This document shows positions 18,987 to 19,444 of a stretch of 20,950 nucleotides of DNA, piece after piece; positions within the stretch are counted from its first letter, which is position 1; each line of letters starts with the position of its first letter. The translations under genes and the position numbers were made by a program. The notes under the pieces were generated by a model that worked only from the letters and a program-made list of their open reading frames with translations, was not told the DNA's origin and searched no databases. Source of the DNA: a virus; IMG/VR virus record IMGVR_UViG_3300023174_000735, positions 1 through 20,950 of that record; one strand, written 5' to 3'.

Positions 18987-19051
18987 GTTTAGGGATTGAT
19001 TCAGCAAACAACCTCGCTAAACATTGTAGACTTAGCGGTCAAGACAATCCC
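18987..19051 (+). ncRNA. candidate Y-like RNA, unit 1
   Basis: GTTTAG, then a closing stem GGGATTG (18992-18998) with CAATCCC (19045-19051), and CAGCAA at 19002-19007. Here nine bases lie between TTTAG and CAGCAA, against eight in the other units. The payload has one hairpin, CGCTAA with TTAGCG around an 11-base loop. It is the first unit after the promoter and the one with the plainest payload. Y-like identity is inferred from the shared architecture and the downstream Ro-type gene. Confidence 0.65.
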
Positions 19052-19057
19052 GATTAG

Positions 19058-19152
19058 TTTTAGGAAGCTTCCAGCAAACCATTATAGCTCAATGGTAGAG
19101 CAATCGTCTTGTAAACGATAGGAGCGGTTCAAATCCGCGCTTAAAGCTTCCT
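19058..19152 (+). ncRNA. candidate Y-like RNA, unit 2, with tRNA-Thr-like body
   Basis: TTTTAG at 19058, a perfect 9-bp closing stem AGGAAGCTT (19062-19070) with AAGCTTCCT (19144-19152), and CAGCAA at 19072-19077. The payload is a tRNA body in normal order: D-arm GCTC/GAGC with AATGGTA loop, anticodon arm ATCGT/ACGAT with loop CTTGTAA (anticodon UGU, Thr), and T-arm GCGG/CCGC with loop TTCAAAT (four pairs plus a mismatch). About 16 extra bases separate the closing stem from the D-arm, so it cannot form a normal acceptor stem, and no CCA follows. It is better read as a tRNA mimic than as a working tRNA, although a gene finder may call tRNA-Thr here. Confidence 0.68.
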
Positions 19153-19158
19153 GTTCTC

Positions 19159-19282
19159 TTTTAGAGTGGATACAGCAACACCTTCGGCACTAAAGTGCCT
19201 CCGGAACAGTCGGCGAGCTTCGGCGAACCTGACAACTTGTTTTTCGATTTCTCAAGGATAAAAAGGAAGTAGGAACCACTCT
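19159..19282 (+). ncRNA. candidate Y-like RNA, unit 3
   Basis: TTTTAG at 19159, closing stem AGAGTGG (19163-19169) with CCACTCT (19276-19282), CAGCAA at 19173-19178. At 124 bases this is the longest unit. The payload has a GGCAC-TAAA-GTGCC hairpin (19186-19199), a bulged helix formed by GTCGG and CCTGAC (19209-19233), and a weak CTTG/CAAG hairpin. It does not look like a tRNA. The payload is more GC-rich than the rest of the array. No known RNA family recognised. Confidence 0.63.
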
Positions 19283-19288
19283 GTTTAC

Positions 19289-19381
19289 TTTTAGGATCTT
19301 TTCGGCAATATCTTTTTTAGTTGGTTCGAATCCAACATTTTCCGAGGGAAAATGCGCTCTTGGTAGAGCAAAAGAGATCCT
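19289..19381 (+). ncRNA. candidate Y RNA (YrlA-like), unit 4, with circularly permuted tRNA mimic
   Basis: TTTTAG at 19289, closing stem AGGATCTTTT (19293-19302) with AAAGAGATCCT (10 pairs, one G-U), and CGGCAA at 19303-19308, a one-base variant of CAGCAA. The payload has tRNA parts in permuted order: T-arm GTTGG-TTCGAAT-CCAAC (19320-19336), then acceptor 3' strand ATTTTCC, a GAG cap, acceptor 5' strand GGAAAAT (7 perfect pairs), then D-arm GCTC-TTGGTA-GAGC (19356-19369). The ends leave where the anticodon arm would be (TCTTT could pair with AAAGA as an alternative). This matches the tRNA-like module of YrlA-class bacterial Y RNAs as I know it. Confidence 0.75.
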
Positions 19382-19386
19382 GTCTA

Positions 19387-19444
19387 TTTTAGGTTGAGTT
19401 CAGCATCTAACAAAGCTCTTCGAAAAAAGCCAAAAGTTCAACCT
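19387..19444 (+). ncRNA. candidate Y-like RNA or Ro-mRNA leader element, unit 5
   Basis: TTTTAG at 19387, CAGCAT at 19401-19406 (one base off CAGCAA), closing stem AGGTTG (19391-19396) with CAACCT (19439-19444), extendable to ten pairs with two G-U. The payload is short, with only a weak GCT/AGC hairpin. It ends 20 bases before the Ro-like start codon, so it forms the leader of that mRNA and could be a site where the protein represses its own synthesis. Confidence 0.6.

Follow-up and report, generated by a model that had tools for sequence, protein, structure and literature searches.

The stretch of DNA analysed here, referred to as the window, is a whole IMG/VR virus contig of 20,950 bases (record IMGVR_UViG_3300023174_000735) with T4-type replication genes by Pfam, namely those for the sliding clamp, the clamp loader and RegA. 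On its plus strand, five units follow one another between a tRNA-Leu gene (18845-18921) and a gene for a 474-residue Ro-like protein starting at 19465. Each unit is closed by a stem formed from its own two ends, and the region is quite probably a tandem array of five Y-type RNAs of a phage, sharing a Ro-docking handle unlike the stem of the bacterial Y RNA YrlA. The tRNA-Leu(TAA), found by both the Rfam tRNA model and ARAGORN, lies immediately 5' of the array. About 20 bp 5' of unit 1, a sigma70-like promoter, TTGACT-N17-TATGAT, occupies 18941-18972 on the same strand. As the box CTTGACT-N16-GTATGATGA, it is present in two perfect copies in the window (17561-17592 and 18941-18972); with up to two mismatches, four matches were found against 0.04 expected, the two weaker ones at 9112 and 16087.

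Each unit begins with (A/G)G-N5-N3-CAGCAA, the last six bases of which may also read CGGCAA or CAGCAT, and ends with a strand complementary to its first seven bases, after which comes a G. The original prediction had described a motif recurring in five units, and all five copies were found (at 18987, 19058, 19159, 19289 and 19387), far above chance. Its details required revision. YTTTAG is not a common start, as unit 1 reads GTTTAG (18987-18992, with 18992 its last base). Of the eight bases said to pair with a downstream complement, only the first five belong to the conserved helix, which consists of AG and these five, 7 bp in total, against N5'CT; the last three lie outside. Similarly, the TGT placed after the 3' strand gives its first T to the helix, and the invariant base beyond the helix is the G. 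At other loci upstream of Ro, 118 distinct units have A-T as the outermost pair, 8 have G-C and 3 have T-A. CAGCAA, taken as single-stranded in the original prediction, may be partly paired, since its G13-C14 may pair with GC or GU near the 3' side; a candidate partner was found just before the A-rich 3' side in 70 of the 241 non-redundant units collected for a loop census, compared with 6.6 expected.

The stem formed by the 5' and 3' ends of each unit is supported as a selected structure by the comparison of homologous loci. For this comparison, 80 relatives of the Ro-like gene were fetched from viral contigs and 900 bases upstream were scanned. Motif density was 2.4 per kb upstream of Ro and 0.07 per kb elsewhere in the same loci, a difference of about 36-fold. 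Of 120 distinct sites in front of related phage Ro genes, 102 had a perfect 7-bp complement downstream, compared with 4 of 58 control sites from the rest of these loci, and swapping the 5' strands among sites left a mean of 7.0 and a maximum of 15 complements in 2000 permutations. In a second test the 3' strand was picked solely by the CTG anchor before the next unit, with complementarity playing no part; 46 of 77 such strands paired at all five variable positions (permuted mean 1.9, maximum 8, n=5000). The strand-swap and CTG-anchor tests are the unbiased ones, and both bear out the selected RNA structure that had been claimed from the five units alone. In an alignment of 44 short units, preselected as pairing and hence serving as an illustration only, all pairs are kept in every sequence and two-sided changes occur at six of the seven; the covariation score of 0.78 compares with 0.18 after shuffling and at most 0.16 after sliding.

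The units are also associated with Ro genes. Among 70 related Ro loci with at least 600 nucleotides available upstream, 63 carry one to four units, and up to six per locus are seen if the first pair is loosened. The last unit ends within 30 nucleotides of the Ro start codon in 36 of these 63 loci, and several stand directly before the ribosome-binding site. In viral contigs, a loose, near-random 14-base variant of the motif gave at least 120 sites, at least 116 of them stemless and at least 4 with a stem; among the matches listed, Ro was present in the fetched stretch for 0 of 116 stemless sites and 3 of 4 stemmed sites. With a specific variant, a stem was found at 113 of 129 sites among the matches listed. 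From among these matches, 16 records were picked, mostly because the fetched stretch showed no Ro, and their whole contigs were checked; 14 encode Ro elsewhere. These scans and the 14 records indicate that the units travel with Ro but need not adjoin it. A motif widespread without stems or without a Ro gene had been named in advance as the observation that would count against a Ro-linked signal; among the matches listed, both scans point the other way, with stemmed sites going with Ro, and the proposal that the motif is common without Ro was rejected.

The rule was further found in 11 of 16 annotated Ro phages sampled: Synechococcus BUCT-ZZ01, Cronobacter S13, Aeromonas LAh_6, Rhizobium RHph_I1_18, Salmonella BPS17L1, Listeria LMTA-34, Campylobacter F336, Vibrio KVP40, Stenotrophomonas DLP6, Ochrobactrum OC and Erwinia SNUABM_19 (jumbo phage). 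Outside the window, units lie beside Ro, downstream of it or tens of kilobases away, singly or inside tRNA clusters, and reversed-sequence controls (56 kb) contained zero units. The occurrence of the rule beside or near Ro across very different phages points to a large unannotated family of viral Y RNAs.

The neighbouring gene (19465-20889, plus strand) encodes a phage Ro60-like protein with the Pfam domains DUF2828 and DUF7788 and a vWA domain bearing the metal ion-dependent adhesion site motif DxSxS as DVSGS, of which D282, S284 and S286 are invariant across 18 relatives. GGAG lies 6 nucleotides ahead of the ATG at 19465, and another in-frame ATG is present at 19453. The protein matches PHROG 850, annotated as 'RNA-binding protein', with 475.6 bits. 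Pfam yields DUF2828 and DUF7788 only, so TROVE (PF05731) is not among its domains, and sequence searches of the PDB found no Ro relative; fold comparison alone detected Ro. Using a predicted structure of moderate confidence (mean predicted local distance difference test score 69.9), Foldseek matched it to Ro60 of Thermus phage phiLo (PDB 9L5Y; E 4e-9, probability 1.00) and to D. radiodurans Rsr (2NVO) and Xenopus Ro (1YVP), both with E 1.9e-6 and probability 1.00; the folds are alike at an identity of 12-16%. At this moderate model confidence, the gene product is predicted to have the Ro fold, an alpha-helical repeat ring with a vWA domain. Relatives were found in 682 phage records, and the 2025 PDB entries for a phage Ro60 suggest that other groups are at work on the protein. 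Phage-type Ro genes were also seen on contigs of bacterial genomes or metagenome-assembled genomes (L367-L377; Roseiflexaceae, Prochlorococcus and others); these may be phage contigs that binning assigned to bacteria.

All five units of the window lie on the plus strand. Unit 1 (18992-19051) is closed by GGGATTG (18992-18998) and CAATCCC (19045-19051), with CAGCAA at 19002-19007 after one additional spacer base; its outermost stem pair is G-C in place of A-U, and it contains an inner hairpin, CGCTAA/TTAGCG. Unit 2 (19062-19152) has the stem AGGAAGC/GCTTCCT (3' strand 19146-19152) and CAGCAA; inside its loop a D arm, an anticodon arm (TGT) and a T arm follow each other as in an ordinary tRNA, with no acceptor stem of their own. 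The Rfam tRNA model matches it with 44.6 bits at 19085-19138, covering model positions 8-63 only; ARAGORN called no tRNA in this unit, which lacks the acceptor stem of a true tRNA. Unit 3 (19163-19282), with AGAGTGG/CCACTCT (19276-19282) and CAGCAA, has an insert of about 100 nucleotides that contains TTTTTCGATTT, ends with GGAAGTAGGAA and resembles an insert at L002:2701-2825, L002 being the closest relative of the window. Unit 4 (19293-19381; AGGATCT/AGATCCT, 3' strand 19375-19381; CGGCAA) carries a permuted tRNA module consisting of a T arm (19320-19336), an acceptor-like hairpin (19337-19353) and a D arm (19356-19369), and scores 22.3 bits (E 0.029) against the Rfam YrlA model, whose gathering cut-off is 69. 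Unit 5 (19391-19444) has AGGTTGA/TCAACCT (19438-19444), CAGCAT and a short loop; it ends 20 nucleotides before the Ro start codon and is a possible control element of the 5' untranslated region. No clear tRNA module was found in units 1, 3 and 5.

The account of the units in the original prediction holds but overlooked the tRNA content of their loops. In the census of 241 units, whose pattern-based classes undercount D arms, a T arm was found in 72 units against 0.6 expected, a related 9-nucleotide T-like loop in 13 against 0.1, and an anticodon-like arm in 55 against 3.1; at least one tRNA-like element is present in 116 units, compared with 3.7 in shuffles. Three arrangements were recognised. 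The first is a permuted tRNA (T arm, closed acceptor hairpin, D arm) resembling YrlA, seen in unit 4 and in 31-37 of the 241 units, some of which (L064, L091) retain ACCA in the hairpin loop. In the second, the D, anticodon and T arms keep their usual order and the Y stem takes the place of the acceptor, as in unit 2 of the window. The third, found in other phages, is a lone anticodon arm in short units of 52-75 nucleotides. A 5-bp hairpin with a loop of exactly 7 nucleotides was found in 53 of 96 short units against 12.2 in shuffles, a clear excess over other loop sizes, and of 64 such 7-nucleotide loops 29 have exactly the sequence of a natural tRNA anticodon loop (1.9 when the letters are shuffled). 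Among 52 anticodons displayed, Thr-UGU (10), Lys-UUU (7) and Arg-UCU (7) lead. Comparison of whole 17-nucleotide anticodon arms with the tRNA genes in the fetched loci gave zero identical pairs, which shows that the arms were not copied directly from these genes.

In bacterial YrlA, a basal stem serves Rsr, and a tRNA-like domain both binds PNPase and undergoes modification by DusA and TruB (PMC8394870); structurally, YrlA can be superposed on tRNA as a circularly permuted form of it (PMC11472068). Like YrlA (RF02553), the phage units have a basal stem made from both ends, a gene position near a Ro homologue and, in part, a permuted T arm, acceptor-like hairpin and D arm. Unlike YrlA, they carry the handle RG-N5 plus N3 plus CAGCAA, stand several to a locus, and include normal-order tRNA arms and the lone anticodon arm as extra effectors. 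In permuted relatives, the Rfam YrlA model reaches E values as low as 4e-7 and scores of at most 46 bits, in some cases over the tRNA-like part only. The YrlA basal stem reportedly bears a signature, GNCGAAN0-1G, said to have been described by Chen and colleagues in 2014 and in agreement with the Rfam consensus. This signature was found within the first 30 nucleotides of 1 of 241 units, and anywhere in 10 against 6.8 in shuffles; it was rejected as a shared signature, in line with the early suspicion that the binding rule differs from the known one. Because both the model score and the signature fail, the units are regarded as Y RNAs of a new variant and not as YrlA. A YrlA model search of 14 control genomes gave sub-cut-off matches only, so that the comparison rests on the model, not on bacterial YrlA genes. 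Vertebrate Y RNAs (RF00019) are likewise small RNAs in which Ro binds the basal stem and the loop region varies, Ro binding being presumed for the phage units; no equivalent of CAGCAA is known in the vertebrate RNAs. Rfam searches at relaxed thresholds (E up to 5) returned no Y_RNA and no Deinococcus Y RNA, the relevant matches being tRNA and weak YrlA.

For Listeria phage CKA15, three noncoding regions no more than 2 kb upstream of Ro were reported among the most transcribed, and the authors suggest that they are Y RNAs; purified virions yielded the Ro protein at 57% coverage, a result given with a caution about the sensitivity of mass spectrometry (PMC12282133). Y RNAs have also been reported in mycobacteriophages (Chen et al. 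2014, as cited in PMC12282133). By the rule, CKA15 carries three units at 25,290-25,552 of the record; they immediately precede the Ro gene and have a SigA-type promoter at 25,603. One of the three transcribed regions, 26,236-26,727 (PMC12282133), was tried as the unit array and rejected, as zero units lie there; judged from promoter positions, the array would be one of the other two. The interval 26236-26727 (L106) has a strong SigA-type promoter at 26792 and appears to encode a different phage RNA of about 490 nucleotides and unassigned kind. The window resembles CKA15 and the mycobacteriophages, as far as these are described in the sections of PMC12282133 drawn on here, in having putative noncoding RNAs near the phage Rsr or Ro gene, there reported as abundant. 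Those sections contain no sequence rule, whereas a docking code, covariation and tRNA modules are defined here. The search for an earlier description of the rule covered the open-access literature, and subscription papers may hold one.

Several results weigh against five phage Y-type RNAs with a common handle. About half of the units have no recognisable tRNA element, YrlA scores stay below the gathering cut-off throughout (window and relatives alike), and the transcribed CKA15 interval mentioned above is free of units. Seven of the 70 Ro loci lack a unit under the strict rule, which misses variants; IMG/VR contigs are fragments, and the associations described are all computational. Five of the 16 annotated phages (Milchi, Aeh1, Bacillus PJN02, Mycobacterium DirkDirk and Staphylococcus SEP9) showed no unit by the rule in the stretches searched. 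The structure could instead be ascribed to decayed tRNA genes or to a general RNA-processing hairpin, such as an RNase site, unrelated to Ro. Several arrays do start right behind a tRNA CCA end, and tRNA arms are found in the loops, but decay would not preserve a covarying stem and a fixed CAGCAA around changing inserts, nor would association with Ro be expected of a general processing site, which makes this explanation very improbable.

Two further proposals concern what the units do. As structures of the 5' untranslated region, not separate RNAs, they might allow Ro to repress or stabilise its own mRNA, and the short distance of the last unit from the start codon at many loci fits such a leader. 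Tandem copies with differing inserts would be needless for this purpose, however, and units also occur downstream of Ro or tens of kilobases off, singly or within tRNA clusters, so a purely cis-acting role seems improbable. The other proposal accepts Y RNAs and differs on function: the tRNA-like and anticodon-arm modules would bait host anticodon nucleases or other tRNA-targeting defences, with Ro holding or clearing the bait. It draws on the excess of 5-bp hairpins with 7-nucleotide loops, on the loops identical to natural ones and on the leading anticodons, and the host nuclease LshCas13a is known to cut the U-rich anticodon loops of tRNA-Lys and others as well as small anticodon-like loops (PMC11042736). 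Nevertheless, an anticodon loop is missing from many permuted modules, and roughly half of all loops bear no recognisable likeness to tRNA; an A+T-rich composition may explain part of the U-richness of the anticodons, and the anticodon choice is compatible with a nuclease decoy and also with base composition. A decoy array is regarded as a rather unlikely account of the function.

For the favoured reading, a Y-type array docked by Ro, the following mechanism is proposed. The array would be transcribed from the promoter at 18941 as one RNA and then cut between units. The handle would comprise the 7-bp stem RG-N5/N5'-CY followed by G, with the three-nucleotide spacer and CAGCAA on its 5' side and A-rich sequence on its 3' side, and the phage Ro encoded next door would recognise it in each unit; such docking is suggested by the co-occurrence of units and Ro and by analogy with YrlA. 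Each handle would enclose an effector module of its own, in many cases a variation on tRNA parts, and by analogy with bacterial YrlA, Ro may grip the handle and leave the effector to recruit or occupy tRNA-binding enzymes. Self-regulation of Ro is possible in addition, because the last unit so often lies within 30 nucleotides of the Ro start codon.

Other features were observed in the window and in related phages. Putative homing endonucleases were found by PHROG at 3208-3795 (minus), 12045-12776 (minus) and 13254-13925, with a possible further one at 433-1062, and a PHROG HNH gene (18226-18876) overlaps the start of the tRNA-Leu ahead of the array. A protein with a Tet/JBP-type oxygenase domain is encoded at 5106-6413, and two genes follow it, one of which (6410-7180) has no Pfam match; this group possibly serves hypermodification of DNA bases. 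L002 contains at 7019-7357 a transfer-messenger RNA (tmRNA)-like gene, matched by the Rfam models alpha_tmRNA (98.1 bits) and tmRNA_permuted (99.9 bits), which is by its sequence a putative phage-encoded tmRNA. In Listeria phage LMTA-34, a tRNA splicing ligase is annotated about 1.3 kb 3' of Ro (L103:4850-5500), which recalls the bacterial rsr-yrlA-rtcBA operon.

The Ro-like protein is widespread in phage records, but its RNA partners are largely unannotated, and a simple sequence rule now yields candidates for them. By this rule many phages have several candidates per genome, with variable parts that are often tRNA pieces, so that a vaguely named 'RNA-binding protein' becomes a testable RNA-protein system, and a second Ro recognition signal becomes available for comparison with YrlA and vertebrate Y RNAs. 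Speculatively, Ro may serve phages as a platform that displays an assortment of tRNA fragments, lone anticodon arms with natural anticodon loops among them, to act as decoys or sensors for host defences that target tRNA; the stem-CAGCAA handle would then be a new code for recognition by Ro, common to many groups of tailed phages. In conclusion, the units tie phage Ro to tRNA biology, a known battleground between phage and host.
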